From positions 90,942 to 154,941 of IMG/VR virus record IMGVR_UViG_3300044634_004833: 64,000 bases of DNA, one strand, 5' to 3'. A program made the translations under genes and the position numbers. Below are positions 7,199 to 63,340 of this stretch, piece by piece; the first letter of the stretch is position 1; every line of letters begins with the position of its first letter. This stretch comes from a virus. The notes below the pieces were generated by a model, which searched no databases, was not told where the DNA came from, and worked only from the letters and a program-made list of their open reading frames with translations.

Positions 7199-7236
7199 TT
7201 TTGTTTCCTAACCCTTTAATTCTGGAGTAAACCAAT

Positions 7237-19684: not shown

Positions 19685-19713
19685 CTGCGATAAGTTTTTC
19701 AAATACTCTAGTG
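19685..19713 (+). promoter_or_regulatory. CTGCGATAA-N14-CTAGTG element
   Basis: Box 1 at 19685-19693, CTAGTG at 19708. It lies 41 bases before the second methyltransferase start and is the only copy between 8 and 50 kb. Confidence 0.75.
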
Positions 19714-19754
19714 GCCGGGAAGCCATTAACTAAAGTATGGAAGGAGGTGCAGCG

Positions 19755-38780: not shown

Positions 38781-38854
38781 ATGAAGTATTTAGGTCTCTG
38801 CGATGAAAAATTGAGTTTTCTTAGCCCCCACAAAGTTGTTTTTTGGCAAGCATA

Positions 38855-49785: not shown

Positions 49786-49803
49786 TAGAATTTTTATATC
49801 AAT

Positions 49804-50962: not shown

Positions 50963-50991
50963 CTGCGATAAAAAATGGAGAAGTATTAGGG
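50963..50991 (+). promoter_or_regulatory. CTGCGATAA-N14-TTAGGG element
   Basis: Box 1 50963-50971, box 2 at 50986; 133 bases before the 51125 gene, giving the longest leader of the group. Confidence 0.7.
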
Positions 50992-51124
50992 GGCACCAGA
51001 AAAGGAGGCGGTGAAAATCTAGGATATGCAATGTTAATCTCACGCAAGGTGAGCGTTGTGAATTAAACCCGTGAATCCCCACCCGTCCTAGCGAAGGGGT
51101 TTTTACAACAATAAGGAGGGTTAT

Positions 51125-51334
51125 ATGACTAAGGGTTCTCGTGACTTGTTTCTTGCTGACATTCAGGCAGCGATTAAAGAGCATTACATACTTACTGAAA
51201 GGGAAGCTGAGTGTGTCTTGCATTCACTAAGAATTGATGTGCATGCAATTGATACATTGTTGAAATTCAAAAGATTGAGTCAAGACAAGGTTGACTTAAT
51301 TCTCTCTAAATCTAGAGAGGCTGGGTTGGTTTAG
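51125..51334 (+). CDS. Unknown 69-residue helical protein
   Basis: All-helical (DIQAAIKEHYILTEREAECV, KRLSQDKVDLILSKSREAG), with the look of a small DNA- or protein-binding phage early protein. AAGGAGG eight bases before the ATG. First gene of the right-hand early/middle block. Confidence 0.78.
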   Translation: MTKGSRDLFLADIQAAIKEHYILTEREAECVLHSLRIDVHAIDTLLKFKRLSQDKVDLILSKSREAGLV

Positions 51335-51335
51335 G

Positions 51336-51364
51336 CTGCGATAAAAAATGGAGTGTCGTTAGGG
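51336..51364 (+). promoter_or_regulatory. CTGCGATAA-N14-TTAGGG element
   Basis: Box 1 51336-51344, box 2 at 51359. It starts one base after the stop of the 51125 gene; the next start is 51471. Confidence 0.7.
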
Positions 51365-51470
51365 ATCGCAAAATCGAGATGTGGTTGATGAAGAATGATA
51401 TCAATATTTTCTTGTGGTGTTTAGAGTTTGTGAAAAGGCTAAGAGTAGACAAAAAAAGGAGGGCTTAAAA

Positions 51471-51644
51471 ATGAAAGAAGAGCATATGAAAGTTATAGAA
51501 GAACTTCGGGATCTGGGATATGCGGTGTGCATATTTACTCCAGAGGAGTTGAGTGGAGCAAAGCCTCATAAGGTAGAGGATGAGCTTGTTTCTGCTGGGT
51601 GGGACATTATTGATACTTTGGCTACAGAAGAGGAGGTTATATGA
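51471..51644 (+). CDS. Unknown 57-residue protein
   Basis: Start set by AAGGAGGG ten bases upstream. Acidic; VIEELRDLGYAVCIFTPEEL suggests a small alpha/beta unit. It overlaps the next ATG by four bases. Confidence 0.75.
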   Translation: MKEEHMKVIEELRDLGYAVCIFTPEELSGAKPHKVEDELVSAGWDIIDTLATEEEVI

Positions 51645-51853
51645 TTGATCCTATTGTTGTTAAGTTGGATATAGACTGGGCTTCTTTGAGGGAACAAAAG
51701 GCTGAGTTAATTAAGTATGCTTGGAAAGATGCTGATAGCAATAAATTGCTTGAAGGGATCATCAGCATTATAGATGCTATTCAGGATCAAGCTGTGGATG
51801 AAAATGGTTTGAGTGAAATGTTGGTCTTTGGTGAGAATTTTGGGAAGTCTTGA
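51641..51853 (+). CDS. Unknown 70-residue protein
   Basis: Coupled by a 4-base overlap to the 51471 gene, with GAGG upstream. Helical and acidic (DWASLREQKAELIKYAWKDA, EGIISIIDAIQDQA). No known family. Confidence 0.75.
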   Translation: MIDPIVVKLDIDWASLREQKAELIKYAWKDADSNKLLEGIISIIDAIQDQAVDENGLSEMLVFGENFGKS

Positions 51854-51901
51854 AAATTACGATAATTTTATAGCGTATGACCAATTAAGGAGGGCTTAAA
51901 A

Positions 51902-52324
51902 ATGGCTACCAGAGGTACTTATCAGTTCATTGATGATTCTACTAAGACTACCATTTATGTTCATTGGGACAATTATTTGGAAGGGGCAGCAAATTACTTT
52001 TATAATATGCTGACCAATCCTAGTAAAGGTAATTTGGCGACTCAATTTATTAGAGCAGTTAGTCATGCTGAAATAACAAGGTCTCATGCTCGTCATGGAG
52101 ATACTGAATTTCAATATAATATAAAAGGTTCTGATGGTGGTGCAGAACTTGTAGTCAATAGTCCATGCACTAATACAGTTGTGTATAGTGGTGTACTTTT
52201 TGATTTTATCAACGATCATAGTAAGTTAATTGAAAATTACAAGCCTATAAGAAAGTATGTCAATGAGTGGGGTTCTATTCAGTATATGACTGTCGATATG
52301 GCTGAGAGAATGAAACTATGCTAA
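51902..52324 (+). CDS. MATRG-type unknown protein
   Basis: 140 residues. The opening MATRGTYQF and TTIYVHWDNYLEGAANYFYN follow a pattern seen in uncharacterised bacterial and phage proteins (start MATRG, then Y-x-H-x-D-x-Y). A beta-rich small domain; function unknown. AAGGAGGG upstream. No canonical bipartite promoter; ACGATAATTTTATAG at ~51860 may be a degenerate start signal. Overlaps the next gene by seven bases. Confidence 0.8.
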   Translation: MATRGTYQFIDDSTKTTIYVHWDNYLEGAANYFYNMLTNPSKGNLATQFIRAVSHAEITRSHARHGDTEFQYNIKGSDGGAELVVNSPCTNTVVYSGVLFDFINDHSKLIENYKPIRKYVNEWGSIQYMTVDMAERMKLC

Positions 52325-52596
52325 AAGTATTTTTATATCAAGAGGGCAGTTTATTTTCAGAAGGAAGTACAGGTAGCAAAGTATTTCCTTCTGATGAAAA
52401 AATTTATAAGTTTAAAAAAAAGCCATTTTCAAGTATGTGGACAGATGAAGTACTTCCTATGTTATGGCATAGTTTTTGGTTTAACAATGAATTTGGAAGT
52501 TCTTACCTTTTTGCAAGAAGTAACGATAGTTGGGAATGGGCTTTAGAGAATATGGTATTTGGCCCTAATTGGAGAGAGCAGAGAGAGAAGTATTAG
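52318..52596 (+). CDS. Unknown 92-residue protein
   Basis: Translationally coupled to the upstream gene. Aromatic-rich (MWTDEVLPMLWHSFWFNNEF, SWEWALENMVFGPNW). Not recognised. Confidence 0.75.
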   Translation: MLKVFLYQEGSLFSEGSTGSKVFPSDEKIYKFKKKPFSSMWTDEVLPMLWHSFWFNNEFGSSYLFARSNDSWEWALENMVFGPNWREQREKY

Positions 52597-52599
52597 GGG

Positions 52600-52628
52600 C
52601 TGCGATAAAAATAAGTTACTTTCTAGTG
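52600..52628 (+). promoter_or_regulatory. CTGCGATAA-N14-CTAGTG element
   Basis: Box 1 52600-52608, box 2 at 52623; 31 bases before the 52660 start. Confidence 0.8.
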
Positions 52629-52659
52629 CCCGTAAGAATTAAAGTAAAGGAGGTGAATT

Positions 52660-53379
52660 ATGCCTAATTGGTGTGCTAATGATTTGACTATCTCTGGAAA
52701 AACAACTGATATTAACGCTATGGTTGAATTATTTGATGTAGATGCTAATGGGGTTGTTATATTTAGTTTTGAAAAGATATATCCTACTCCAGATGAATTG
52801 AAGAATGATGATTTATGGTCATCTGGTACGAGTGCAGATACAATAGCAAAGCAATATAAAAGAAACGATCCTTTGACTGATATAGATGGAGTTTCATTGT
52901 TAGGTAGAGACTGTGTGTTATCAGAAGGGGTAAAAGAGTTTCTGGATGACAGTAGGTATATTGATTGGGTTAATTCATATGTTCTTTTAAAAGAAGAAGA
53001 TGACGAAGATAAGATTATGAGTTTTGCTCAAGATTTTGTTAAAATGGTAAACAGACTGGAAGCTTATGGTTTTACTGGTTGGTATGGTTGGAGGGTTGCC
53101 AATTGGGGAACTAAATGGGATGTTGCTCCAGATGATGCATCAATCAATATTGTTGAATATAAGGGTAATAGAAACAAATCAAAATTTTCTTCAACATTTG
53201 ATACAGCTTGGTCACCTCCTATTGGTGTATTGCATAAGTTATCAGAAAGGTTTCCAGAATTGGAAATTAAGGTAGCATTTTTTGAAGGTGGTTGTTGTTT
53301 TAAGGGTACTGCTAAGTTTAAGGGTGGAGAACTGATAAGTTCTACAGAGGGTTCGTATCGTGGCCCTAGAGGGGGTTAA
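52660..53379 (+). CDS. YubB/DUF1281-like ferredoxin-fold protein
   Basis: 239 residues. MPNWCANDLTISG at the N-terminus, FSFEKIYPTPDEL, then YGWRVANWGTKWD (~142-154) and FDTAWSPPIGVLHKLSERFP (~178-197) are the ordered signature of the YubB-type family found on plasmids and phages. The biochemical role is not established. CFKGTAKFKGGE near the end completes the fold. AAAGGAGG precedes the ATG. The orphan insertion element lies downstream. Confidence 0.88.
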   Translation: MPNWCANDLTISGKTTDINAMVELFDVDANGVVIFSFEKIYPTPDELKNDDLWSSGTSADTIAKQYKRNDPLTDIDGVSLLGRDCVLSEGVKEFLDDSRYIDWVNSYVLLKEEDDEDKIMSFAQDFVKMVNRLEAYGFTGWYGWRVANWGTKWDVAPDDASINIVEYKGNRNKSKFSSTFDTAWSPPIGVLHKLSERFPELEIKVAFFEGGCCFKGTAKFKGGELISSTEGSYRGPRGG

Positions 53380-53412
53380 TAATAAAATTTGAACCTTTGA
53401 CCAAAGATATAT

Positions 53413-53556
53413 CGTCAACTACCCCCAGCTAAAGCAGGGAGCTTGTCATTCCAAGTTTCGTGCTGACTTTTAGTCCAGTTCCGGCTTTCAGCCGGAACAC
53501 ACGGAATCTGAAATCAGATTCAACGGACGACATTAGGCTGATTGATGCAGCCCTAT
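53413..53556 (+). ncRNA. Candidate orphan omega-RNA (HEARO/IscB type)
   Basis: After the left-end hairpin come GACTTTTAGTC, a perfect 8-bp stem TTCCGGCT/AGCCGGAA, a perfect 7-bp stem AATCTGA/TCAGATT and GGCTG/CAGCC. This serial-hairpin order beside an IS605-like left end is what I recall for HEARO RNAs, the IscB guide scaffolds, in which the guide is taken from sequence upstream of the left end. By that rule the guide here would be phage sequence ending near 53412. Structure is seen; identity is inferred. Confidence 0.5.
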
Positions 53557-53636
53557 GTTTAATTATAGTGTTGTTTTGTTTAAGTTCAAGAGCCAATTCC
53601 TCCCCCGACTAAAGTCAGGGGGGATTCCTTGGCTCG
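53413..53636 (+). mobile_element. Non-autonomous IS200/IS605-like element
   Basis: The left end has an imperfect hairpin in GTCAACTACCCCCAGC-TAAA-GCAGGG. The right end (53588-53635) is a near-perfect hairpin with outer arms GAGCCAA/TTGGCTC and an inner CCCCCGACT-AAA-GTCAGGGGG stem. The CCC(C)-n-GCTAAAGC-GGG style is characteristic of IS605-family ends. No transposase, TnpB or IscB frame fits in the ~225 bases, so it could move only with proteins supplied in trans. Exact boundaries are uncertain by several bases. Inserted between two early-region genes. Confidence 0.7.
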
Positions 53637-53658
53637 AAGATCTTGAAAAAGGGGATGC

Positions 53659-53687
53659 CTGAGATAAAAAGTGAGGTATGTCTAGTA
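53659..53687 (+). promoter_or_regulatory. CTGAGATAA-N14-CTAGTA element
   Basis: Box 1 (C to A variant) 53659-53667, box 2 at 53682; 22 bases before GTG 53710. Confidence 0.7.
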
Positions 53688-53709
53688 GGAAAAGAAAAGG
53701 AGGTGCTTT

Positions 53710-53931
53710 GTGGATTTGGAATCTTTGAGGGAAAAGGTTGCCAACGAATTGTGGGAAGGTGCAGATCTACCTGAGCCTTTAAATAAGGAGGGTGAGCGCA
53801 CCCAATGGGTTAAGTATAAAAAGCAAACCAATGTGTGGGTGCGATGTTTTCGGGGAAAGACTCGGAATGAAATTTTCCGAATTAAGTGGAAGTCAAAATC
53901 TATTGAATTTGTTTCAGCAGGTTTGATGTGA
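53710..53931 (+). CDS. Unknown 73-residue protein, GTG start
   Basis: AAGGAGG seven bases before the GTG. Basic and Trp-containing (WVKYKKQTNVWVRCFRGKTR); possibly nucleic-acid binding. Overlaps the next reading frame by four bases. Confidence 0.7.
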   Translation: MDLESLREKVANELWEGADLPEPLNKEGERTQWVKYKKQTNVWVRCFRGKTRNEIFRIKWKSKSIEFVSAGLM

Positions 53932-54137
53932 GACACATTCATAGGATACACATAGGGGTTTCCAATTCTATGTTAGATATGCCAGCTGACTGCGAGAAAG
54001 AAGGCTGGCGTATGGTTTGGGATTGGCAGGGGGAGAGATGGAGCTTCTCTGAATCCAATTGTTGTTCATTTAGAAATGACTTGAGACATAATAGGTTACT
54101 AGGTCAAGATTACAACGAAGGATTTTTTTATAGCTGA
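53928..54137 (+). CDS. Unknown small protein
   Basis: 69 residues from GTG 53928 (overlapping the upstream stop) or 55 from ATG 53970. Acidic-aromatic (WRMVWDWQGERWSFSESNCC). Not recognised. Confidence 0.6.
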   Translation: MRHIHRIHIGVSNSMLDMPADCEKEGWRMVWDWQGERWSFSESNCCSFRNDLRHNRLLGQDYNEGFFYS

Positions 54138-54150
54138 AAGGAGGTGTAAC

Positions 54151-54750
54151 ATGATTGAACTTAGTGATGTTATTCCTGCCGTATTAAAGACATACAAAAA
54201 AGAGCAGCGTGTATTTATTAATATTCGACCTAATGATAATAAGGTATATGTTAATAGAGAAGGAAGTTCTATACTAAAAGATAGTCAATTTATCAAGTCG
54301 GTTACAAAGTTAATGGGATTGTTTACAAATGAAGAGTTAGTTGAATCTGCTAAAACTTTAGCTAGGTGTTCATTTGGCAATTTGGCAAAAGATTTTGAAG
54401 ATAGGGATTTTTTTATAGATATAGAAGATGGTATTTGTAATGATGAATTAACAAAAATTAGTTGGTTTATTCAGTTGTGTAGTTTGTCATTTGCTTATGA
54501 TTTTTGTATAGCAGATATAGACTTTAGTGAATCTATTTCTGATATTGAAAATCCACATATAAAAGTAACTATTGTTTCAAATCAATCTAAAAACCAATTT
54601 GATGTTGTATATGATATTGATGAAGATGAAGGTGAATGTGAAGAATGTGGGTATCTAGAGTGTGAGTGCTGTGCAGATTGTGAGTGTGCAGATTGTGAGT
54701 GTTATGATGATGATGATTTTGATGATGATGATGATGATGATGAAGAGTGA
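54151..54750 (+). CDS. Protein with Cys/Asp-rich metal-binding-type tail
   Basis: 199 residues. The first ~150 form an ordinary alpha/beta domain (VFINIRPNDNKVYVNREGSS). From ~157 the sequence becomes ECEECGYLECECCADCEC and similar, with about eight cysteines, then a run of aspartates to the end. This tail could bind metal or mimic DNA charge. AAGGAGGTG upstream. Function unknown. Confidence 0.78.
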   Translation: MIELSDVIPAVLKTYKKEQRVFINIRPNDNKVYVNREGSSILKDSQFIKSVTKLMGLFTNEELVESAKTLARCSFGNLAKDFEDRDFFIDIEDGICNDELTKISWFIQLCSLSFAYDFCIADIDFSESISDIENPHIKVTIVSNQSKNQFDVVYDIDEDEGECEECGYLECECCADCECADCECYDDDDFDDDDDDDEE

Positions 54751-54779
54751 CTGCGATAAAATCTTGGGGTTGTCTAGTA
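54751..54779 (+). promoter_or_regulatory. CTGCGATAA-N14-CTAGTA element
   Basis: Box 1 54751-54759 begins one base after the previous stop; box 2 at 54774; 25 bases before 54805. Confidence 0.8.
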
Positions 54780-54804
54780 TTCAATTAAGAAAGGAAGTGT
54801 TGAT

Positions 54805-55179
54805 ATGAGTAGTAGCTTCTATATCTGCATTCATCTACATGAGATGTATATGATTAAAGGTTCTATGGTTTATATGTTAGAGAACGATCTTACTATGCTT
54901 AAAGAACAAGCCCAACTTTTGGCTAGAAGTTGTGAGTGGTTTGACAAGAAGTGTAGCAATAATGATATAATCAATGGTTGGAAAGCAAATGGCGATGATC
55001 TTGATGAGTGGATTATTGCATTATGGTTTGCTATGGATGTAGATCCAAATTTGAATGAAAATCATAAGGAAACATTGCGTAGATTGGCATGGTGGCTGGA
55101 TGATGTAGTTGCTTCAGAATTACCGCTAGAGACTGTGCATAGTTCTCCGATGGTTGTAAAAGCGAGGGAAGTGGGCTAA
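54805..55179 (+). CDS. Unknown 124-residue helical protein
   Basis: Helical and acidic, with MLKEQAQLLARSCEWFDKKC and LRRLAWWLDDVVASEL. Not recognised. AAGGAAG precedes the ATG. Confidence 0.75.
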   Translation: MSSSFYICIHLHEMYMIKGSMVYMLENDLTMLKEQAQLLARSCEWFDKKCSNNDIINGWKANGDDLDEWIIALWFAMDVDPNLNENHKETLRRLAWWLDDVVASELPLETVHSSPMVVKAREVG

Positions 55180-55190
55180 TTTTATTAGCT

Positions 55191-55202
55191 GGCCCGTATA
55201 AT
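55191..55202 (+). promoter_or_regulatory. GGCCCGTATAAT promoter
   Basis: Sigma70-like -10 with C-run, 23 bases before 55226; one of two of this class in the right part. Confidence 0.55.
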
Positions 55203-55225
55203 TTATTTTCAGGAGGGAAGCAATT

Positions 55226-55816
55226 ATGCAAAGTAATGATAAATTAGCCAAGTGGAAGGCCCGTCTTAGTTATTTCAAGGATGAGATGGGTTTTGGCCCT
55301 TTGAAGCAATATCGCAACGAGGAGGGCAATCTTCATAGGGATGATGGCCCTGCGTGGATTTCCCCTACTAGAGTGATTTGGTATCAGAATGGGCGCAAGC
55401 ATGGTCTTGATGCTGATATTCATGGTAGTATTCATTACTACTTTGAGAATATTAGGATACCTCCACACTTCTATACAAAGCCTGATTCTTTGACTGTAGA
55501 AGAAGTATTAGGCCATCCCAATGCAGAGTGCCGATATGTAGGCATGAAATGTATTGGTATGGATAAAGTAATGAATCATAAGAGGACAAAGGTGATTCAC
55601 AAGGATAATAGCAAGGGTCAGGTTTTGTTTATGATTGGTGGTATATTTGATGAGCCTGTAGCTTATGTAAAGGTTGTTAATAGTACACAAGAGCCAGATG
55701 GTAGTTATAAAGACTATTATCTATGTGTTCCACCTACTTGTAAAACTTGTTCTGAAGCTGTCAGTTGGACTTTTGGCTTAACTGCTGATAGCTATCGTCC
55801 AGAGCAGGAGACATAG
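55226..55816 (+). CDS. DUF6745-like protein with MORN-like start
   Basis: 196 residues. Residues ~25-60 (YRNEEGNLHRDDGPAWI, then WYQNGRKHG) are MORN-like repeats. ~88-130 (TVEEVLGHPNAECRYVGMKC) and ~143-190 (EPVAYVKVVNSTQEPDGSYK, CVPPTCKTCSEAVSWTFG) match the C-terminal pattern I know from DUF6745 proteins of bacteria with large genomes. Function unknown. CAGGAGGG upstream. Confidence 0.8.
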   Translation: MQSNDKLAKWKARLSYFKDEMGFGPLKQYRNEEGNLHRDDGPAWISPTRVIWYQNGRKHGLDADIHGSIHYYFENIRIPPHFYTKPDSLTVEEVLGHPNAECRYVGMKCIGMDKVMNHKRTKVIHKDNSKGQVLFMIGGIFDEPVAYVKVVNSTQEPDGSYKDYYLCVPPTCKTCSEAVSWTFGLTADSYRPEQET

Positions 55817-55817
55817 G

Positions 55818-55846
55818 CTGCGATAAAAAATTGAAAAGTTCTAGTG
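55818..55846 (+). promoter_or_regulatory. CTGCGATAA-N14-CTAGTG element
   Basis: Box 1 55818-55826, box 2 at 55841; 30 bases before 55877. Confidence 0.8.
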
Positions 55847-55876
55847 CTTGTACTGAGGGGCAAAGGAGGGACAAAG

Positions 55877-56290
55877 ATGTTGGAACAGGCACTAGAACAT
55901 TTGAAGCAGGATGAGTTTAGGGAAGCAATGATGCTTCTTTTGTCTAATCCTGATAAGTTTTCTTCTGAAGATAGGAAGAAGATTTCTAAGTATTGTTTAT
56001 CATCATGTCCAGATATGGCAGATGAAATCTTTACATTGTGTAAGGTTAAGTCTGATACTGAAATGATGAAGCAAGCATTTCAGCATATCAAGCTTAGTAA
56101 TAACAATACTCTTATCTACGCTATTGAATTGGGCCTTGATGCTGTAGCTGAAAGGCTAGTATCAGAGGGCAAGGTCAATAACTTAGATGCTGCCATTTAT
56201 AAATGTTTGCTTTTGCAGAATGGTGTTCTAGCTGGCAAGCTATTGGATATTAAAGCAAAAAGGCAAGCTGAGAAGAACCAGCAATCCTGA
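55877..56290 (+). CDS. Ankyrin-like helical-repeat protein, short
   Basis: 137 residues. NNTLIYAIELGLDAVAERLV and LDAAIYKCLLLQNGVLAGKL read as degenerate ankyrin-like helix pairs. Its N-terminus (EQALEHLKQDEFREAMMLLL, then RKKISKYC) resembles that of the next gene, so they are probably related by duplication. AAAGGAGGG precedes the ATG. Confidence 0.75.
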   Translation: MLEQALEHLKQDEFREAMMLLLSNPDKFSSEDRKKISKYCLSSCPDMADEIFTLCKVKSDTEMMKQAFQHIKLSNNNTLIYAIELGLDAVAERLVSEGKVNNLDAAIYKCLLLQNGVLAGKLLDIKAKRQAEKNQQS

Positions 56291-56292
56291 GC

Positions 56293-56321
56293 CTGCGATA
56301 AAAATAAGTTATTCTCTAGTG
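56293..56321 (+). promoter_or_regulatory. CTGCGATAA-N14-CTAGTG element
   Basis: Box 1 56293-56301, box 2 at 56316; 28 bases before 56350. Confidence 0.8.
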
Positions 56322-56349
56322 GGCAACATTACTCTAGGAGGGACAACAA

Positions 56350-57519
56350 ATGACTCATGCTGAAAAATTAGAACAGATTGAAAAATTCAATGAGCTTGCT
56401 CAGAATGGTGAGTGGGAGCAAGCGATAGATATGGTTATATCAGACTTTGATATAAGTTTGTTTAACCTTTCTTCCCGCAAGAAGTTTGTCCAGTATTGCA
56501 AAGATAATGTTACTGAAGATAACGATATTTCTAATAAAAATAAGGTTGTAATTTTCAAGTCTATTGAATCTTTGAGGGTTGTTACAGATAAGTTATTAGG
56601 TGTGCCGATTGCTGAAGAGAAGATAAATTCTCTCCATTCATTTATCCGTATGGGATATGGAATTACTGATTTTAGCAGGGATAAAATAGACTTTTTTTCT
56701 AGCATAGATTTTGCTAAGAATGAGTATTCTTATAACAAATTTGTTGGTGTATTCTTCAATAAAATGAATTTTTCGCATCCTGAGATAAATTGGTATATTA
56801 CTAAGATTATGGATAGTGCTGGTAGGCATAGGTATAACATTAGTTTGGAGAACTCTAAGAAGTTGTTAGACATAGGTTTTTCTGAAAGTTATCCATTTAA
56901 TATGGAAGGATTGTTTTCTATTGATAAATCTCTTATCAATAGAACTACTAAAATAGTTCTTGATAAAAAGAATACAGATTTGGCCAATTACTTATTTACT
57001 GCTTGCTGTGAGAGAAACAATAGAGAATATATTGTTTCTTTGCTTGATAATGGATTTAAGTCTATTACCAATGGAATTCAGATTGCAATAAATAGTAATC
57101 ATTTTGGTCTTGCTACGCTTATATTGAAGTATAAGCCTAGAAAGTTCAGCCTTAGCATGGTTCAATGGCTTATGGACAGATACCACAATCTTGCTAGGAG
57201 GTATTCAGATCGCATTCTTACTATTGTGGATAAATATGCAAAATATGATGTATCTACTAGTAAAAGTTATGCTGAAGAAGCAACTAAGCATGCTAAGCTT
57301 AGTGTTGATGTTATCAATTGCATTCAATATTCACTTGATAGAAAGCCAGATGAAAGTTGTTTGAGCTATATCAAAACAGTTGCTAATGATGCCTCTCATT
57401 ATTTGGATAAGATTAAAAACATTGGTTTAGAGATTGAATCCTATAATATTCCAGCGTTTAGGTGTTTTGATAATGACTTGCGACAAATGGATTCTTATCA
57501 ATCTAATGTTGCTCGTTAG
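56350..57519 (+). CDS. Ankyrin-like helical-repeat protein, long
   Basis: 389 residues. ELAQNGEWEQAIDMVISDFD near the start; later FTACCERNNREYIVSLLDNG and GIQIAINSNHFGLATLILKY are ankyrin-type units (helix, helix, G/N turn). Likely a protein-interaction scaffold, perhaps against a host target (inference). TAGGAGGG upstream. Confidence 0.75.
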   Translation: MTHAEKLEQIEKFNELAQNGEWEQAIDMVISDFDISLFNLSSRKKFVQYCKDNVTEDNDISNKNKVVIFKSIESLRVVTDKLLGVPIAEEKINSLHSFIRMGYGITDFSRDKIDFFSSIDFAKNEYSYNKFVGVFFNKMNFSHPEINWYITKIMDSAGRHRYNISLENSKKLLDIGFSESYPFNMEGLFSIDKSLINRTTKIVLDKKNTDLANYLFTACCERNNREYIVSLLDNGFKSITNGIQIAINSNHFGLATLILKYKPRKFSLSMVQWLMDRYHNLARRYSDRILTIVDKYAKYDVSTSKSYAEEATKHAKLSVDVINCIQYSLDRKPDESCLSYIKTVANDASHYLDKIKNIGLEIESYNIPAFRCFDNDLRQMDSYQSNVAR

Positions 57520-57520
57520 A

Positions 57521-57549
57521 CTGCGATAAAAAATGGCTATTGGTTAGTA
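57521..57549 (+). promoter_or_regulatory. CTGCGATAA-N14-TTAGTA element (first of two)
   Basis: Box 1 57521-57529, box 2 at 57544. A second element starts 68 bases downstream, before the same gene. Confidence 0.7.
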
Positions 57550-57588
57550 GTCATGCTCATCAAGGTGGTCTTGGTGAGAAAAGTAACC

Positions 57589-57617
57589 CTGCGATAAGTT
57601 ATCGCAGTTTGCTAGTG
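57589..57617 (+). promoter_or_regulatory. CTGCGATAA-N14-CTAGTG element (second of two), with dyad
   Basis: Box 1 57589-57597, box 2 at 57612. Here box 1 forms a perfect 9-base inverted repeat with TTATCGCAG (57599-57607). 46 bases before 57664. Confidence 0.8.
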
Positions 57618-57663
57618 TGTGCCGGTGGTGTTTATTACTTTGTTGTTAAGGAGGGTTAATACT

Positions 57664-58767
57664 ATGGCTCGTACCAAATCTGCTTCTACTGTGTGGCTTG
57701 AGAATGTTTTGACTTCTAATCCTGATCTGCGTTTTGCAGAGGCAGTTGGCCATCCTGACTATGCCAGCAATGGCTTCAACTTCGATGCTGCGTATTTCAA
57801 CGCAATTAAGTGTCGATATAAGAAGTCCCTTACTGGGGCTGGTGTTGGTACTGGTGGGTCTGTTGCTGTTGTTTCTCCGTCTCAGACTTCCGTAACTGAT
57901 CGACAGAATTATGATTATGACTCTGATACAACAGAGATGATTCCATCTGTCGATCCGCACTATGTGCTGACTGGAGAGAACATTTCCTTCTTTGAATTGG
58001 TTCAGAAAATGTCTGATTCAAAGAATGTGAATGTGCGTCTGGTTGGGCCAGCTGGTTGTGGTAAGACTAGCTTTGCCAGCCAATATGCTGCAAAGTATAA
58101 CTTGCCTCTTATGGTTGTCAACTGTGCGAATGTGCGTGAACCAAGAGATTGGTTCGGCTATCGCAAGTTGGATCAAGATAAGAATCTTGTCTGGCATGAA
58201 AGTCTCTTTGTTAGGATGCTAGAGACTCCTAATGCTGTTATCGTGCTGGACGAAACGAATCGTTGTCCTATGCACACACTTAACACTTTGTATCCTCTGC
58301 TTGACCATCGTAGGTCTAGCTATCTTGAGGAGGCTAATCGTACTCTAACTGTTGCAGAAGGCGTTACCTTTTGGGCAGCTATGAACGAGGGCAATCAGTT
58401 TACTGGTACTACTCAGCTAGACGAGGCTTTTGCTGATCGTACTGGTCTGGTGCATGAGTGTAAGTTTCTTTCTCTAGAGGACGAGACACTTGTGTTGCAC
58501 AATCGTACTGGTCTTGATAAAGCAAACTCGTTAAAGCTAGTGGAGATTGCCGATCAAGTGCGTAAGAAAGCACTTATGGATAGTGGTGATAGCTTTAGCA
58601 AGCCTATCTCTACTCGTATGCTTGAGGAGGCTGCTGCTGCGTTTGTGATTGGGGGGCCTAATACTATGGTCTATACTCTGCTTAATCACTTTAGTTCAAG
58701 TGGTGGCACTACTAGCGAGCGTCATAACTTGAAGACTCTACTGACTGGTAAGTTTGGCCAGCTGTAA
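57664..58767 (+). CDS. MoxR/CobS-type AAA+ ATPase
   Basis: 367 residues. Walker A GPAGCGKTS (~129), Walker B AVIVLDETNR (~190), sensor-1 region FWAAMNEGNQFTG and DEAFADR (arginine finger) identify an AAA+ protein of the MoxR/CobS group. The ~110-residue N-terminal extension contains CobS-like elements. These ATPases work with VWA-domain partners as chaperones or metal-insertion machines; the VWA gene follows immediately. Start chosen at 57664 by AAGGAGGG. Two bipartite promoters precede it, implying strong or staged expression. Confidence 0.9.
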   Translation: MARTKSASTVWLENVLTSNPDLRFAEAVGHPDYASNGFNFDAAYFNAIKCRYKKSLTGAGVGTGGSVAVVSPSQTSVTDRQNYDYDSDTTEMIPSVDPHYVLTGENISFFELVQKMSDSKNVNVRLVGPAGCGKTSFASQYAAKYNLPLMVVNCANVREPRDWFGYRKLDQDKNLVWHESLFVRMLETPNAVIVLDETNRCPMHTLNTLYPLLDHRRSSYLEEANRTLTVAEGVTFWAAMNEGNQFTGTTQLDEAFADRTGLVHECKFLSLEDETLVLHNRTGLDKANSLKLVEIADQVRKKALMDSGDSFSKPISTRMLEEAAAAFVIGGPNTMVYTLLNHFSSSGGTTSERHNLKTLLTGKFGQL

Positions 58768-58787
58768 GGTTTTAGTTGTTTTTTCTG

Positions 58788-58823
58788 CCCCCTACCCATA
58801 TAACTTATGGGTAGGGGTTTTTT
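58788..58823 (+). terminator. Strong terminator
   Basis: Twelve-base stem CCCCTACCCATA/TATGGGTAGGGG, 5-base loop, six T. It separates the ATPase and VWA genes, each with its own promoter. Confidence 0.92.
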
Positions 58824-58840
58824 CGTTGACGAAAACAACC

Positions 58841-58869
58841 CTGCGATAAAAAATAGATTATCTCTAGTG
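58841..58869 (+). promoter_or_regulatory. CTGCGATAA-N14-CTAGTG element
   Basis: Box 1 58841-58849, box 2 at 58864; 37 bases before 58907. Confidence 0.8.
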
Positions 58870-58906
58870 TGTGTGGTGGTAAGGTAACTTAAAGGAGGGC
58901 CAAAAA

Positions 58907-60991
58907 ATGAGCAATAATGATGATGGCTTGTTTGACTTTGACAATGAGGATTTGGATTTGGAGAAAGATTTGCGTGGCCCTTCTAAGTTTGATGCTTCAA
59001 GTATTCCAGATGACCACCCATATCTTCCACAGAATCAAAATAAGGCTCCGAAGACTTACGATGTTACCAACTGGCATGAAGGTCAGTTTGGTCAACGCAC
59101 TAGCTGGTACACTTCCTTCACTCCGATGAAGTCTACTTCAGAGTATCTCCGTAGTAGCAGCTATGGTAGCTATGGATATTATGATAACTATTCTTCTTAC
59201 AAGAAGAAAACTGATACTGAAGTTATTTTGCAAGAGCAATTGCATGAAGTTCTGAAAGAGCTTAACAAGACTATCAATCTTACCAGTAACTCTAATACTG
59301 GCAAAGAGGAAGTTCTTAATGTTAAGTATTCTAATGGCATGGTTGTTAATGATCTAATGTCTAACACTTTGTTTGTTTCTCCTAATGTTATGCTGGAGAA
59401 TGAAGAAAAATTAAAGAGTGGCGACACTTATTATGACTCTCTTGATGGTCTTAATGGTCAAGCTATGTTGTGTGCCTTTATGAAAAAGGGCATTCATGCT
59501 GATGCTAACATTCAGTACAAAGAGAGTGCGTCTTGGGCTACTCGTAATATCTTTATGTCAGATATTCAATCTACTGCTGCTGGTGAAGTGTTTAGCAAGT
59601 GGCCTGGCTTTATGAGCTATATCACACAACAGATGACTGTATTTGGTGTGCGTAAAGATGTAGTTCTCAATCGCTTTCGTCAGGAAGTTATTCTTCTTGA
59701 TGATCTAGTTGAGTGCCTTTGCTATAATCGTCTTGCACCAGATAAGATTGACTATAGTATGTTCGACGAAGAAATTGTTAAGAAGATGCTGCTTGCAGAT
59801 AAAGACTTCAACGATATGATGGATATTGATTGTGAGTCTGCTTTAAGATTCCAGAAAGCAATTCGCATCTATGAGAATGTTCGTGATATTCTCAATCTTA
59901 ATTCGATGGATTTGAATGCTAGGTTTAATGCTTCTGGTATGAGTGTTCCAGCAAAACCTACAGATGATAGTGTTGACGAATCACTTTCTGGCAAGAAAGA
60001 GATTAAAGATGAGCCTTCTGAATTGAAGCGAGACTTTACTGGCGACAATAGTTACAACAATCATAAAGAGATTGAAGGTGATATTGTCTCTGGTATTCTT
60101 GACCACAATAAGAAGATGAAAGAAAGACTGAAGGAGTTGGAAGATAAGTTGGCTAGTGATCTCAGTCAGATGGAGATTCTGAATGATGTTACTTACAAAA
60201 TGATGATTCCTCCAGTCAATAAGGAACAGATTGCTGATTATGATAACTATGTCCGTAGCAATCGTAAAGCTATCGACAGTATCAAAAATGGTATGATGTT
60301 CCATAACAATCATCCTAATGTCTTCAGTTATGGTTTGACTGATGGCGATATTGATGAACATGCTCTCTATAAGATTCACTTTGGAGAATGTCAGCGTATC
60401 TTTGAGCGCAAAGATATAATTGGTGATAAGAGCTATCATGTTACTTTGGTTATTGACCAATCTGGTAGCATGGGTGGAGGAAAGATTACTGAAGCTGCAA
60501 AGCTATGTATCTTGTTCTCTGAGGCTTTAAAGTATCTCAAAGCTACAGAAGTGTCTATCTATGGTTTTGAGACGCATGATATTCGCACTTGGGTCTATAA
60601 GGATAAGATTTATGATAAGACTAAGGCTTTGATTCATGCTAAAGAAGATGGTGGTACTGCAATGGGATACCATTTGGGTTCTATTGGTGATAAGGTACTC
60701 ACTCAGTATGGGGAGTTTGATAACAAGTTTATGTTTGTTATCTGTGATGGTGGCCCTACTCATGCACCTGAAGGTATGCACCCAAAACAGCATACTGCTA
60801 AGGTTATTCAGAAGTTGCGACAGAAAGGTATCAAAGTATATGGGATTGGTATCCTGAATGCTTTTGATGATTCTACTGGCAATGATATATTCGGTGAAGG
60901 AAACTTTACTGTAATCAATGATATTGCTGGTAGTCTTCCTGTCCTTTGCAATAGGATGCGTAAGTATCTGCAAAAGACTTCTAAGGCGTGA
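58907..60991 (+). CDS. VWA-domain protein (CobT-like partner of the MoxR ATPase)
   Basis: 694 residues. The C-terminal VWA domain has a complete MIDAS: VIDQSGSMGGG (~515), GGTAMG (~581) and VICDGGPTH (~610). Preceding it, ~390-440 is acidic coiled coil (KKMKERLKELEDKLASDLSQ). The N-terminal ~60 residues are acidic and disordered (GLFDFDNEDLDLEKDLRG). Domain order resembles CobT and other VWA partners of MoxR ATPases. The pair may remodel a host or phage complex; cobalamin synthesis itself is unlikely in isolation. Confidence 0.88.
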   Translation: MSNNDDGLFDFDNEDLDLEKDLRGPSKFDASSIPDDHPYLPQNQNKAPKTYDVTNWHEGQFGQRTSWYTSFTPMKSTSEYLRSSSYGSYGYYDNYSSYKKKTDTEVILQEQLHEVLKELNKTINLTSNSNTGKEEVLNVKYSNGMVVNDLMSNTLFVSPNVMLENEEKLKSGDTYYDSLDGLNGQAMLCAFMKKGIHADANIQYKESASWATRNIFMSDIQSTAAGEVFSKWPGFMSYITQQMTVFGVRKDVVLNRFRQEVILLDDLVECLCYNRLAPDKIDYSMFDEEIVKKMLLADKDFNDMMDIDCESALRFQKAIRIYENVRDILNLNSMDLNARFNASGMSVPAKPTDDSVDESLSGKKEIKDEPSELKRDFTGDNSYNNHKEIEGDIVSGILDHNKKMKERLKELEDKLASDLSQMEILNDVTYKMMIPPVNKEQIADYDNYVRSNRKAIDSIKNGMMFHNNHPNVFSYGLTDGDIDEHALYKIHFGECQRIFERKDIIGDKSYHVTLVIDQSGSMGGGKITEAAKLCILFSEALKYLKATEVSIYGFETHDIRTWVYKDKIYDKTKALIHAKEDGGTAMGYHLGSIGDKVLTQYGEFDNKFMFVICDGGPTHAPEGMHPKQHTAKVIQKLRQKGIKVYGIGILNAFDDSTGNDIFGEGNFTVINDIAGSLPVLCNRMRKYLQKTSKA

Positions 60992-60999
60992 TAGCAAAA

Positions 61000-61030
61000 G
61001 GGGGCTGAGATAAAAACTCAGCCCCCCTTA
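61000..61030 (+). terminator. Terminator-like hairpin overlapping a bipartite element
   Basis: Ten-base stem GGGGGCTGAG/CTCAGCCCCC with loop ATAAAAA, shortly after the VWA stop; followed by CTTAG rather than a T-run. Confidence 0.7.
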
Positions 61031-61033
61031 GTT
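61005..61033 (+). promoter_or_regulatory. CTGAGATAA-N14-TTAGTT element inside the hairpin
   Basis: Box 1 (C to A variant) 61005-61013, box 2 at 61028; the variant base is also the one needed to close the stem. 22 bases before 61056. Confidence 0.65.
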
Positions 61034-61055
61034 GTCAAAAGAAAAGAGGTGTGCA

Positions 61056-61490
61056 ATGGTAAGTAAAGAATTCATTCTGGCAGGGAGAGCAATCTTCTCT
61101 ATTACTATACCAGAGGGTTTTGCTAAGAAGAATAAGATTGCCACCTCTTTCATCTACAGAGTAGCTAAGAAGCCAGACGCTTCTGTTTACTTTGTCAGTA
61201 TCATGGATGCTGCTAACAATGATTATCAATACATTGGTATGTTAAGTGCAGATACTGGTGAGGTCAACCTTACCCGCAGTTCGCATATCAACACCGAAAG
61301 TTTGGTCTATAAGCTAATCAATAGAATCCTACAAAATATTTGGGGTGGAACTAGCGATAAGATTATAGAGTCAGGATTCCAAGTTGAACACTTGGGCAAG
61401 TGTGGAAGGTGCGGATGCAAATTACTAACCAAAGAATCGATGGTTAGAGGCATCGGTCCAGAATGTCTAGCTATGTTAGGATTGAGCTAG
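61056..61490 (+). CDS. Protein with C-terminal zinc knuckle
   Basis: 144 residues from ATG 61056 (AAAGAGGTG upstream). The C-terminus CGRCGCKLLTKESMVRGIGP then C is the short zinc motif known from DUF6011-like domains (C-x2-C, G-I-G-P-x-C). The N-terminal ~100 residues are alpha/beta with KKPDASVYFVSIMDAANNDY. Likely nucleic-acid associated; function unknown. Confidence 0.8.
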   Translation: MVSKEFILAGRAIFSITIPEGFAKKNKIATSFIYRVAKKPDASVYFVSIMDAANNDYQYIGMLSADTGEVNLTRSSHINTESLVYKLINRILQNIWGGTSDKIIESGFQVEHLGKCGRCGCKLLTKESMVRGIGPECLAMLGLS

Positions 61491-61534
61491 CATTAAATAT
61501 AAACTATAAAGGTTCCCAGCCTCTTAATGGGACC

Positions 61535-61542
61535 GTGTACTT
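61535..61542 (+). promoter_or_regulatory. Solo GTGTACTT site
   Basis: The context AATGGGACC-GTGTACTTAAT matches units of the 50521 array. It lies 17 bases before the ATG at 61559, over its ribosome-binding region. Confidence 0.55.
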
Positions 61543-61558
61543 AATAAGGGGGTGCCCA

Positions 61559-62098
61559 ATGCAACCCGGGAATACTCACAAGGTCCTGATCAATAATAAA
61601 TGGCAAGGGGCAATCATAGTCAGGGAGAGACCAGATATCTATGAAGTAAGACTGAGTGATTCTAATTCAGTCATAGGCATTCGAAAATCGTTTCTAAAGG
61701 CCTTTCGACCCCTGCCCAAGGGACTTGGATCAGATAGCCCCCTGATCGCCCGTTTTAGGGCCATAAATTATGATGAGCTGCTTAGACTGGTGCTGCAGGC
61801 AAGCAAGTTCTTAGACCCCGGGGAAGTGCTCAAAATAAACCAAGATGGTTCGATATCTGATGGTTCCGGAGCTGTAACAATCAAAGTTGGGACAATGGAT
61901 CAGGTTACTGATGAATTCATTGAAGAGGTCCCAGCATGGGTTATTACTCTTAATGACCCATATGTTGGCACCAGCGTCGTAGCCACTTGTGTGGAGGCCC
62001 TTCCTGCTGCAGAGGCTTTTACTAAAGCTTGGTATCACAGAAAAGCTACTCTTTACTTCGATACTTTGAGACTAAGTACTTTTAGGATATTAGTCTGA
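61559..62098 (+). CDS. Unknown protein with SH3-like start
   Basis: 179 residues; ATG 61559 is preceded by AAGGGGGTG, whereas the longer frame from 61463 would overlap the upstream gene. Residues ~8-45 (HKVLINNKWQGAIIVRERPD, YEVRLSDSN) look like a small SH3/Tudor-type barrel. The rest is alpha/beta, including DQVTDEFIEEVPAWVITLND. Function unknown. Carries no bipartite promoter of its own but has the solo GTGTACTT site. Confidence 0.75.
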   Translation: MQPGNTHKVLINNKWQGAIIVRERPDIYEVRLSDSNSVIGIRKSFLKAFRPLPKGLGSDSPLIARFRAINYDELLRLVLQASKFLDPGEVLKINQDGSISDGSGAVTIKVGTMDQVTDEFIEEVPAWVITLNDPYVGTSVVATCVEALPAAEAFTKAWYHRKATLYFDTLRLSTFRILV

Positions 62099-62127
62099 CT
62101 GCGATAAAAAATAAGTTATTCCTAGGG
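62099..62127 (+). promoter_or_regulatory. CTGCGATAA-N14-CTAGGG element
   Basis: Box 1 62099-62107 begins directly after the previous stop; box 2 at 62122; 28 bases before 62156. Confidence 0.78.
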
Positions 62128-62155
62128 AGTATAACAAACGAAAAGGAGGTGTCGA

Positions 62156-62707
62156 ATGGAAACAACACTTAACGACAGGTTCGCAGTTGGTAAGGATGTT
62201 ATTGTTATGGCTACTAAAGCTGTTGGCAAAGTAGTAAAGCATGAAGGGGGCGAAGGGGAACTTCGTCAGACTAGAGTTTCTTTTGGGAGTTATGAAAAGG
62301 TCTACGATCAGTATTATCTGGCACCATATAAGAAAATCAGATCTGATGCTCTGGATACCTTTTGTTTGCTAGTTGACAATCTGGTTGAATCTATTAATAA
62401 TGTTTGCACTAAATTCAATCTGCCTAAAGTGCAATATAGTGATGGTCGAATTTTTGATAGTGTTTATGGACTGAGTTTAACTCCTACTGTATCATATCGT
62501 CATAGTATTAGTGGGTTTATTGAATATTGCTGTTGGGAGATGTCTATCAGCAGTACTATGTCTAAGGATCATGGATGGGATGGCACTATTCATGTTTTTG
62601 AAGAAATGAATGAAGTTATGACTAGCATTTATAATGCTACTAAGGTATATGTTGCGGAGTTAGCTAAGATCGCTGTTAATCATGCAGTTAATAAAGAATT
62701 TGAATAA
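62156..62707 (+). CDS. Unknown 183-residue protein
   Basis: The start (DRFAVGKDVIVMATKAVGKV then VKHEGGEG) resembles an SH3-like barrel similar in style to the previous gene. The C-terminal part is helical (HVFEEMNEVMTSIYNATKVY). Not recognised. AAGGAGGTG precedes the ATG. Confidence 0.78.
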   Translation: METTLNDRFAVGKDVIVMATKAVGKVVKHEGGEGELRQTRVSFGSYEKVYDQYYLAPYKKIRSDALDTFCLLVDNLVESINNVCTKFNLPKVQYSDGRIFDSVYGLSLTPTVSYRHSISGFIEYCCWEMSISSTMSKDHGWDGTIHVFEEMNEVMTSIYNATKVYVAELAKIAVNHAVNKEFE

Positions 62708-62717
62708 TGATTTAAAG

Positions 62718-62799
62718 AGCCACCGATTGGACTTGAACCAACAATGAGAAAACTCGCCGGTTTACAAAACCGGTCCCTTACCATTCGGGGCACGGTGGC
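62718..62799 (-). tRNA. tRNA with Thr anticodon (UGU) and long variable arm
   Basis: On the minus strand: 7-bp acceptor stem GCCACCG/CGGTGGC, D arm CCC/GGG with GG in the loop, anticodon stem CCGGT/ACCGG with 7-base loop TTTGTAA (anticodon TGT), a 14-base variable region with hairpin GAG-TTTT-CTC, and T arm GTTGG/CCAAT around TTCAAGT. Discriminator T. The only minus-strand gene in the right part. Canonical numbering gives Thr; the class II variable arm is unexpected for Thr. Confidence 0.85.
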
Positions 62800-62821
62800 G
62801 TGATACTTTATTATAGTTCGC

Positions 62822-62850
62822 CTGCGATAAAAATCCAATACATCTTAGTT
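62822..62850 (+). promoter_or_regulatory. CTGCGATAA-N14-TTAGTT element
   Basis: Box 1 62822-62830, box 2 at 62845; 18 bases before 62869. Confidence 0.78.
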
Positions 62851-62868
62851 TGCAAAGGAGGGCCAACA

Positions 62869-63303
62869 ATGCAAACGATTCTTCATACTTTTCAATTCTG
62901 CGAACATAACTTTCATTATGTGCAAGCCCCTTGTCCTACATCCCACGCCGTCACCCATGAGGTGGTTGGCGTGACGAAGGATGATTCAGAGTTCCTCTAT
63001 TCCAATGAGGAACTACTTCATGCTGTTTTTGAATATGGCAGGATAATCTGGTTATCTAAGAAGGACGAACTAAAAGAAGAAAGTGTGCCAAGTATGACGC
63101 TTGATGAGGCTCAAAAGTTAGGCGAAGGCATGGAAGTTAATTATCAAGGCTATTCTTGTCTGATAAGGAAAGTCATGTTCTTCGGTGGGAACCATCCTTA
63201 CTGGATATTGGCCCCAGAGATGGGAATGCCGAAACAAATGCGTGTGAAGGTGGGAGGAGGCCCTATTAGCTATGCTGCTTGCCAGCCTGTTGGGCTGCGA
63301 TAA
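62869..63303 (+). CDS. Unknown 144-residue protein
   Basis: ATG 62869 set by AAAGGAGGG. Contains HAVTHEVVGVTKDDSEFLYS and a region EGMEVNYQGYSCLIRKVMFF that may be a small barrel. Not recognised. Its last codons and stop (CTGCGATAA) are also box 1 of the next element. Confidence 0.75.
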   Translation: MQTILHTFQFCEHNFHYVQAPCPTSHAVTHEVVGVTKDDSEFLYSNEELLHAVFEYGRIIWLSKKDELKEESVPSMTLDEAQKLGEGMEVNYQGYSCLIRKVMFFGGNHPYWILAPEMGMPKQMRVKVGGGPISYAACQPVGLR

Positions 63304-63323
63304 ATTTTCGAAGAATACTGTGG
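63295..63323 (+). promoter_or_regulatory. Degenerate CTGCGATAA-N14-CTGTGG element
   Basis: Perfect box 1 (63295-63303) forming the stop of the previous gene, but box 2 is CTGTGG. It is followed by a GCCGTATAAT -10 at 63341-63350, so start control may have shifted. Confidence 0.45.
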
Positions 63324-63340
63324 ATTGGGAAAAAATGATT

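Follow-up and report, generated by a model that had tools for sequence, protein, structure and literature searches.

A bipartite element repeated in a huge-phage genome fragment is probably a promoter class read by a phage-encoded sigma factor

The closest known system to the element described here is the set of late promoters of Salmonella phage 7-11 (GTAAtg-(16)-aCTA), which are read by the phage sigma factor SaPh711_gp47 together with the host core polymerase and from which transcription starts 6–9 bp from the -10 element (PMC8948821). The middle and late promoters of phage phiEco32, which depend on gp36, have the consensus tAATGTAtA; gp36 and gp47 share about 15% identity and the promoter changed as the sigma factor diverged (PMC8948821). 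Sigma homologs are also present in jumbo phages without an RNA polymerase of their own (PMC13282480), and one huge phage carries its own sigma-70 (PMC7162821). No mapped promoter class was found for the jumbo-phage lineage studied here in the literature examined, nor any described phage promoter with the boxes reported below, in agreement with an earlier note on this DNA. Three features of the 7-11 type of promoter are found in this record: a fixed spacing between two boxes, a placement shortly before genes with the same orientation, and a phage genome that itself encodes a sigma factor.

The window analyzed is a stretch of 64,000 nucleotides (positions 90,942–154,941 of the 154,941-bp virus record IMGVR_UViG_3300044634_004833), and coordinates refer to the window unless the record is named. 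The element CTGMGATAA-N14-YTAG has 15 exact copies in the window, all on the + strand, and none in dinucleotide shuffles of the window (n = 100). The whole record contains 16 exact copies on the + strand and none on the - strand, and the reversed pattern has no match in it. All 16 starts that had been listed earlier for the window are real, 15 of them exact and the last (63295) degenerate, with box 1 followed by CTGTGG in place of YTAG as had been described, but a copy with one mismatch at 38798 had been overlooked. The earlier note had proposed a count over the complete genome; over the record, the count added one further perfect copy outside the window (record 69950–69976), giving a total of 18 accepted copies (16 exact, 38798, and 63295). 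The spacing, which had been called invariant, is exactly that: 16 of the 20 CTGMGATAA sites in the record are followed by YTAG at a gap of 14, and of the other gap lengths between 6 and 20 not one yields a YTAG. Taken as hexamers, CTGCGA and YTAGTG are separated by 17, as had been calculated, and the element thus has two boxes at a fixed distance near 16–18 bp, repeated within one genome.

When the upstream regions of 186 ORFs were searched for dyads in an unbiased manner, the element came first (CTGCG-N18-CTAG at 10 genes, 0.03 expected), and the two top hexamers in a ranking by upstream enrichment (GCGATA first, CTGCGA second) both derive from it. The PWM scores are bimodal, with 17 copies at 27–41 bits, one at 17.8 bits and the next best site at 11.1 bits, the control being the reversed sequence (maximum 14.6 bits). 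Conservation extends into the flanks (G at -2, AAAA after box 1, TG after YTAG), and the spacer between box 1 and YTAG is unconserved. A third fixed element is a Y-R step 5 nt past YTAG (+31/+32 from the start of the box), which is present in 16 out of 18 copies, compared with 0–7 copies at positions further downstream. This pattern most likely places the start site 6 nt downstream of YTAG, at the lower limit of the 6–9 bases that the earlier note had predicted. Because the fixed spacing, orientation, position and conserved start-site step all fit, the element is most likely a promoter and not an operator or an RNA element.

The copies are intergenic or run into the stop codon of the gene before, and the next start codon on the same strand is mostly 20–63 nt away (the spans given here run from box 1 to the predicted +1; all copies are on the + strand and exact unless stated). 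The copy at 7170..7202 (28.4 bits, Y-R step not clear) precedes an ORF without a family (7237–8211, 324 aa), and that at 19685..19717 precedes a DNA methyltransferase gene (19737–20675, PHROG methyltransferase matches). The copy at 38798..38830 (element match 38798–38824) has one mismatch in box 1 (CTGCGATGA) and TTAG at a gap of 14; its score is the 17.8 bits that exceed the control maximum, and an ORF with a weak PGDYG match (38867–39670) starts 43 nt after the element.

The remaining copies of the window belong to the right arm. The copy at 50963..50995 is followed by a strong ribosome site, a mini-ORF of three codons and ORF 51125–51334, immediately 3′ of whose stop lies the copy at 51336..51368 with a ribosome site ∼90 nt further on (ATG 51472). 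Further copies precede a DUF1281_C, Api92-like ORF (copy 52600..52632, ORF 52660–53379), a GTG-initiated ORF (copy 53659..53691, CTGAGATAA; ORF 53710–53931), ORF 54805–55179 (copy 54751..54783, adjoining the stop of ORF 54151–54750), an ORF that ends at 56290 and has an in-frame ATG at 55877 after AAAGGAGGG (copy 55818..55850), and ORF 56350–57519 (389 aa; copy 56293..56325). A tandem pair (57521..57553 and 57589..57621) precedes the gene of a MoxR/CbbQ-type AAA ATPase (57619..58767 on the + strand, AAA_5 1.1e-18), which is 55% identical to its ortholog in the related phage G051. A strong intrinsic terminator (58789..58823 on the + strand, 12-bp stem and T-run) lies directly 5′ of the copy at 58841..58873, an arrangement that was counted in favor of the promoter reading, and a VWA/CobT-like gene follows (58907–60991). 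The copies at 61005..61037 (CTGAGATAA) and 62099..62131 precede a DUF6011 ORF ending at 61490 and ORF 62156–62707, respectively; at 62822..62854 the predicted +1 coincides with the initial A of the ribosome site AAAGGAGG (ATG 62870), and the TAA of the degenerate copy at 63295..63327, upstream of ORF 63425–63934, also terminates the ORF before it. Three copies lack a nearby ribosome site: 51336, 57521 (where the second copy, 57589, comes next) and 63295.

Two rival readings take the element for something other than a promoter core. A binding site for an activator or repressor (operator or enhancer) would suit the tandem copies at the MoxR gene and the inverted repeats that extend from some copies, namely 57589, where box 1 lies within the perfect repeat CTGCGATAAGTTATCGCAG, 61005, which sits inside a 10-bp hairpin (GGGGGCTGAG...CTCAGCCCCC), and, by eye, 7170. 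The symmetry is however limited to these few copies, an operator accounts poorly for a single orientation, a fixed distance between the boxes and a fixed downstream Y-R step, and the element is not accompanied by enrichment of a distinct sigma-70-like promoter class, which makes an operator highly improbable. An element acting in polycistronic messages (processing site, leader hairpin or attenuator) would be in keeping with copies placed in the narrow gaps of a dense gene array, where some reach into a stop codon and a few lie in hairpins. Yet a shared hairpin was not seen by eye in most copies, the spacer shows no conservation, Rfam returned no match other than tRNAs, and isolated copies also precede lone genes such as sigma2 (see below) and the methyltransferase gene, so that an RNA-level function is extremely improbable.

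The promoter could in principle serve a known type of polymerase. The -10 box of FliA promoters is GCCGATAA and that of T4 late promoters is TATAAATA; box 1 resembles the former and, loosely, the latter. A FliA (sigma-28) promoter would carry TAAA some 15 nt before GCCGATAA, but no conserved block occurs 10–20 nt upstream, positions -20 to -3 relative to box 1 are unconserved, and YTAG would be left unexplained; a FliA or T4-type -10 at box 1 would moreover place the start inside the spacer and not at +32. The host sigma-70 boxes (TTGACA-N17-TATAAT) are absent from the element, and the right arm holds sigma-70-like sites at chance level (46, compared with 42.4 ± 6.7 in shuffles). A T7-type RNA polymerase gene (PF00940) had no match in the record, itself a fragment, or in G051, with only a sub-threshold match in LR756511 (595 kb). 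A promoter of a host alternative sigma factor, host sigma-70, the T4-late type or a single-subunit phage polymerase has therefore next to no probability. The beta subunit of a multisubunit polymerase had no match in the record, LR756511 or five relative contigs; as the record is a fragment, a polymerase or some further regulator could be encoded outside it.

The earlier note had proposed that the class is read by a phage-encoded or phage-modified sigma factor, to be sought in the rest of the genome, and the search lends support to this view. Two sigma-70-family proteins are recognizable by Pfam in the record, both with a Sigma70_r2 match, and a weaker third candidate is a paralog of the second; the three genes lie within about 11 kb, and the motif stands immediately before only one of them. 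Sigma1 (record 67215–68123) has regions 2 and 4 above the Pfam cut-off and matches RpoS and SigA in the PDB. Sigma2 (record 70040–70864, outside the window) is a highly diverged member of the family whose start codon lies 63 nt after the perfect copy at record 69950–69976 (+ strand). Its Sigma70_r2 match reaches 24.5 bits in a six-frame search (cut-off 24) and 22.8 bits in hmmscan. Against the PDB, a profile of sigma2 and its G051 ortholog returned sigma factors and no other proteins, all as weak matches (E about 0.1–0.3), and with a third member added the E-value was 1.7e-5. An AlphaFold2 model (pLDDT 76; a single-sequence model was unusable at pLDDT 45) contains region-2-like and region-4-like helices, and every top PDB match listed by Foldseek was a sigma chain (probability about 1, E-values about 1e-3), with a global TM of only 0.3–0.37. 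Region 2 of sigma2 is thus recognized by Pfam, profile and fold matches; region 4 has no Pfam match, and a predicted four-helix C-terminus (194–265, pLDDT mostly 70–86) is a candidate for it. Profile comparison of sigma2 with sigma1 gave no significant similarity. Sigma3 (record 77804–78706) matches the sigma2 profile at 2.7e-10 and has no Pfam sigma match.

The related phage G051 separates these candidates to some extent. It carries a syntenic sigma2 ortholog that is only 29% identical and has no Pfam match, and CTGMGATAA-N14-YTAG is absent from its sequence. The absence of the motif from relatives was at first taken to speak against conservation of the system, before a changed motif was recognized in G051: YGGCGAAWCT...YTA, located before its own sigma2 and MoxR genes. 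This element has seven copies and was initially spotted upstream of chosen orthologs; it was recovered by hexamer ranking only (GGCGAA first among all hexamers for upstream enrichment, 7/18, 0.37 expected, p 3.8e-8) and missed by the exact dyad search. Box 2 is weaker than in the record and displaced by 1 nt, and a purine occupies +32 in all seven copies. The recognition helix of sigma1 is identical in the two phages and that of sigma2 is not. The shift of the element in G051 is therefore not explained by sigma1, and the relatives suggest an element that shifts along with sigma2.

A promoter read by sigma3 or sigma1 remains an unlikely alternative. Both are encoded nearby, sigma1 alone has clear regions 2 and 4, and sigma3, which is as diverged as sigma2 (only 27% identity between the two phages), could be the reader instead. 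On the other hand, neither gene is preceded by the motif, sigma3 is not recognized by Pfam, and clear sigma1 homologs occur in relatives (G051, G053, G030, G034, and LR756511) from which the motif is absent. Screening of 20 and then 27 phage contigs chosen via DnaE and PrkA gave chance-level matches only. An IMG/VR search returned 28 contigs with one copy each, which were rejected as carriers of the promoter class and regarded as chance or coding matches because no contig was enriched. No sigma2 relative beyond that of G051 was found in IMG/VR. G052 has a sigma2-like gene and no visible repeated element on a contig too short to judge by (30.8 kb), and neither a sigma2 ortholog nor a comparable upstream hexamer was found in G049, G053, G030, and G034.

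Taken together, the element is probably a phage-specific promoter read by the host core RNA polymerase carrying sigma2, under autoregulation. The -35 box CTGCGATAAAAA would lie at -32 to about -21, followed after CTGCGATAA by a free spacer of 14 nt, a -10 box that spans -9 to -4 (YTAGTG) and the Y-R start step at -1/+1. Transcribed from its own copy, sigma2 would amplify itself once made and switch on a regulon consisting of the small-gene cluster of the right arm, the MoxR, VWA and DNA methyltransferase genes and a few others, from which the left-half genes of the record are apparently excluded. We infer the start at the element, the role of sigma2, the use of the host polymerase and the timing; the element with its geometry and placement is read directly from the DNA, as are the sigma genes. 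More speculatively, the three sigma-70-type factors, all encoded in a stretch of about 11 kb, might form a cascade on the host polymerase in which sigma1 stays fixed while sigma2 and its private autoregulated promoter are rapidly re-coded between related phages (29% identity, a new -35 box), a possible case of mutually insulated sigma–promoter pairs evolving naturally.

To our knowledge, almost nothing is known of the promoters of uncultured huge phages. Here one class becomes legible from sequence, with a likely sigma factor, a regulon and a predicted start site, and many unnamed right-arm genes are grouped into one expression class. The pair formed with G051 offers a natural test of joint change in sigma -35 specificity and promoters, and two candidate orthogonal sigma–promoter sets for laboratory use.

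Compared with the known systems, the element shares with phage 7-11 a bipartite promoter repeated in one genome, the letters CTA in box 2, a phage-encoded sigma factor (with region 4 in gp47) and, as proposed here, the host core polymerase. It differs in its -35 box, in a sigma2 to which gp47 has no detectable BLASTP similarity (E 9.7), in serving chiefly a cluster of the right arm, whose genes are for the most part unnamed, instead of late genes, and in the promoter copy borne by the sigma gene itself; the different boxes and the BLASTP result rule out a 7-11 promoter proper, that is, a gp47 regulon. With phiEco32 it has in common a phage sigma factor, a private consensus and a promoter that changes as the sigma factor diverges, although the phiEco32 promoter is a single element without a -35 box and gp36 lacks region-4 homology. 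Like the jumbo phages without a polymerase, this is a large phage with sigma genes and no RNA polymerase beta found, and here a candidate promoter is visible from sequence. The sequence of the element is new, and its proposed kind, a bipartite promoter dependent on a phage sigma factor, is already known: a probable new example of the viral strategy of redirecting the host transcription machinery by means of a private promoter and sigma factor.

All 16 copies of the element CTG(C/A)GATAA-N14-YTAG (box 1, spacer, box 2) reported in the earlier note were located, each on the + strand. Fifteen are exact, and the degenerate copy (63295, named like all copies by the start of box 1 in the window) indeed lacks YTAG. 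The 15 exact copies in the window compare with none in 100 dinucleotide shuffles, and the whole 154,941-base record (IMGVR_UViG_3300044634_004833) contains 16 exact copies on the + strand, none on the - strand and none of the reversed pattern. The claimed 14-base spacing is equally strict: 16 of the 20 CTGMGATAA sequences of the record carry YTAG at gap 14, and in no case does YTAG stand at another gap between 6 and 20. A position-weight scan set 17 copies (27–41 bits) apart from all other sites. An additional copy (38798, CTGCGATGA with TTAG at gap 14) scored 17.8, above the top score of 14.6 on the reversed sequence used as control, and lies 43 nt upstream of an ORF; the total was therefore taken as 18 copies. 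In an unbiased search for dyads in the regions 5′ of 186 ORFs, CTGCG-N18-CTAG ranked first (10 genes vs. 0.03 expected), and an unbiased hexamer ranking of the record placed GCGATA first and CTGCGA second.

The copies sit between closely packed genes, and the next start codon mostly follows the end of box 2 by 20–63 nt. At copy 63295 the box 1 TAA doubles as the stop codon of the preceding gene, and copy 58841 directly follows a strong terminator (58789–58823). The aligned copies share a G two bases 5′ of box 1, an A-tract 3′ of box 1 and a TG 3′ of YTAG, and the spacer is mostly unconserved apart from the A-tract. A pyrimidine–purine step occupies +31/+32 from the box start in 16 of the 18 copies (0–7 at downstream positions); with transcription starting at this purine, YTAG would span -9 to -6, and box 1 would span -32 to -24. 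This fixed layout of -35 box, free spacer, -10 box and initiator is that expected of a promoter, and the element almost certainly represents a promoter class; an operator or RNA element is a less apt explanation because neither would need a fixed initiator. Sigma-70-like sites show no excess over shuffles in the right arm, the last ~13 kb of the window where most copies cluster. The window spans bases 90942–154941 of the record, and its right end coincides with the end of the contig.

Two copies in tandem precede a MoxR/CbbQ-type ATPase gene, and other copies precede genes for a VWA/CobT-like protein, a DUF1281_C protein, a DUF6011 protein and a DNA methyltransferase. The MoxR-type ATPase is followed by the VWA protein (57619–60991), each with one or more promoter copies of its own; other phages have distant homologs of both proteins. 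Downstream of promoter 50963, the region 51000–51110 holds a 3-codon ORF (GTG AAA ATC TAG) served by a strong ribosome site and, between this short ORF and the one at 51125, a terminator-like stem and T-run identified by eye, an arrangement that may possibly reflect leader-peptide attenuation. Repeats also occur in this part of the window: short tandem units of the type ATCCACACCC / ATCTACACGCAT (49690–49790, iteron- or repeat-array-like), GTGTACTT(T) units between GGGCCG/GGAACC-like words (intergenic at 50530–50640 and again inside an ORF at 61520–61545), and a hairpin-rich intergenic stretch (53420–53640, CCCCCAGCTAAAGCAGGG ... CCCCCGACTAAAGTCAGGGGGG) that resembles IS200/IS605-type element ends and had no match in an Rfam search. 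The record also encodes a transposase at its left end (L009:5-1108).

The whole-record search found no copy 5′ of record position 69950 in the left half, which carries DNA polymerase, helicase and large RCC1-repeat protein ORFs. Three very large proteins of the record (1418, 1024, and 3159 aa; window 28365–32621, L011:2340-5414, and L011:5467-14946) contain many RCC1-type beta-propeller repeats, which is unusual for phage proteins. The DnaE-type DNA polymerase is split over two ORFs (L010:1405-2871 and L010:5518-8013) with ~2.6 kb of other ORFs between them, an order also found in the related contigs G049, G051, and G053.

A six-frame Sigma70_r2 search for the sigma factor anticipated elsewhere in the genome recovered two genes, both above the family cut-off. 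Sigma1 (record 67215–68123, 302 aa) exceeds the Pfam cut-offs for both region 2 and region 4, with hits to RpoS and SigA chains in the PDB. Sigma2 (record 70040–70864, 274 aa) is preceded by a perfect copy of the element at record 69950, 63 nt upstream; its Sigma70_r2 match in hmmscan is weak (22.8 bits, cut-off 24), and single-sequence searches found no match in the PDB and no relative in a phage collection. A profile of sigma2 and its ortholog from G051 matched only sigma factors in the PDB (E 0.1–0.3), and with a third member, itself recovered by the Pfam sigma model, E reached 1.7e-5. The AlphaFold2 model (four-sequence alignment, pLDDT 76) shows helices resembling region 2, followed by a loose linker and a C-terminus of four helices. 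All top PDB fold matches listed are sigma chains (E about 1e-3, global TM 0.3–0.37, a low value that a different placement of the two domains would explain), and sigma factors make up most of the named top matches in a viral library. Several tests thus agree that sigma2 is probably a sigma factor. The proposal of a promoter class read by a phage sigma factor is supported by these genes together with the fixed geometry and initiator step.

Judged by sequence, the record belongs with the huge phages; its PrkA-like protein and DnaE are 67% and 49% identical to those of LR756511.1, a 595-kb uncultured phage. IMG/VR contigs with 60–83% PrkA identity were gathered as relatives, and the element did not exceed chance in any of them. 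One of them, G051 (IMGVR_UViG_3300008267_013251, 145 kb), encodes syntenic orthologs of sigma1 (53%) and sigma2 (27–29%); MoxR (55%) and the VWA protein also have orthologs there, again as a gene pair. Inspection of the sequence upstream of these orthologs revealed CYGGCGAAWCTTNTT...YTA, unlike the element of the record. Contig G030 (IMGVR_UViG_3300034105_004893) holds a repeat family, tandem or dispersed, with GGTGAAAC and ACTGGA units and a copy number of ~80. Gene choice was removed by ranking all hexamers 20–85 nt upstream of ribosome-site-bearing ORFs: GGCGAA ranked first in G051 (7 of 18 vs. 0.37 expected, p 3.8e-8), and neither a comparably enriched hexamer nor a sigma2 ortholog was found in G049, G053, G030, or G034. 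The seven G051 copies, which include the regions upstream of sigma2 and MoxR, share the GCGA core, depart by no more than 1 nt from the spacing of the two boxes, and carry a purine at +32 in 7/7. A sigma-70-like TTGACA-N17-TATGGT, seen by eye before G051 sigma2, may be where synthesis is first set off.

The recognition helix of sigma1 (LTKERVRQIRE) is identical in the record and G051, which disfavours sigma1 as the reader because the box should then have stayed the same. In sigma2 the equivalent C-terminal helix is not the same (ISANAVRKRL vs. YCRWAIHKRF), nor is the -35 box, and sigma2 is probably the reader. Reading by sigma3 instead (record 77804–78706, L012:17804-18706, - strand) is less likely; this sigma2 paralog (profile E 2.7e-10) has an ortholog in G051 (96918–97709) and matched none of the Pfam sigma models. 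RNA polymerase beta had no match in the record, LR756511 or five relative contigs, and T7-type polymerase none above cut-off, so the phage sigma likely works with the core polymerase of the host, the record searched being an incomplete genome. Most jumbo phages lack an RNA polymerase of their own, and sigma homologs, which likely team up with the host polymerase, are often encoded by such phages (PMC13282480, a 2026 review).

No mapped promoter class of this phage lineage turned up in a literature search, and the matches listed for the box itself were all unrelated sequences. Together, sigma2 and the element appear to form an unusually clean in silico case of sigma–promoter co-divergence. The nearest described case of a phage sigma with its own bipartite promoter is that of Salmonella phage 7-11; its sigma, gp47, without detectable similarity to sigma2, reads GTAAtg-(16)-aCTA in vitro with starts 6–9 bp from the element (PMC8948821). 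A distant gp47 relative, phiEco32 gp36 (15% identity), recognises one box only, of another sequence (PMC8948821), so that both the pairing of a phage sigma with a promoter of its own and their joint change are already known in kind.
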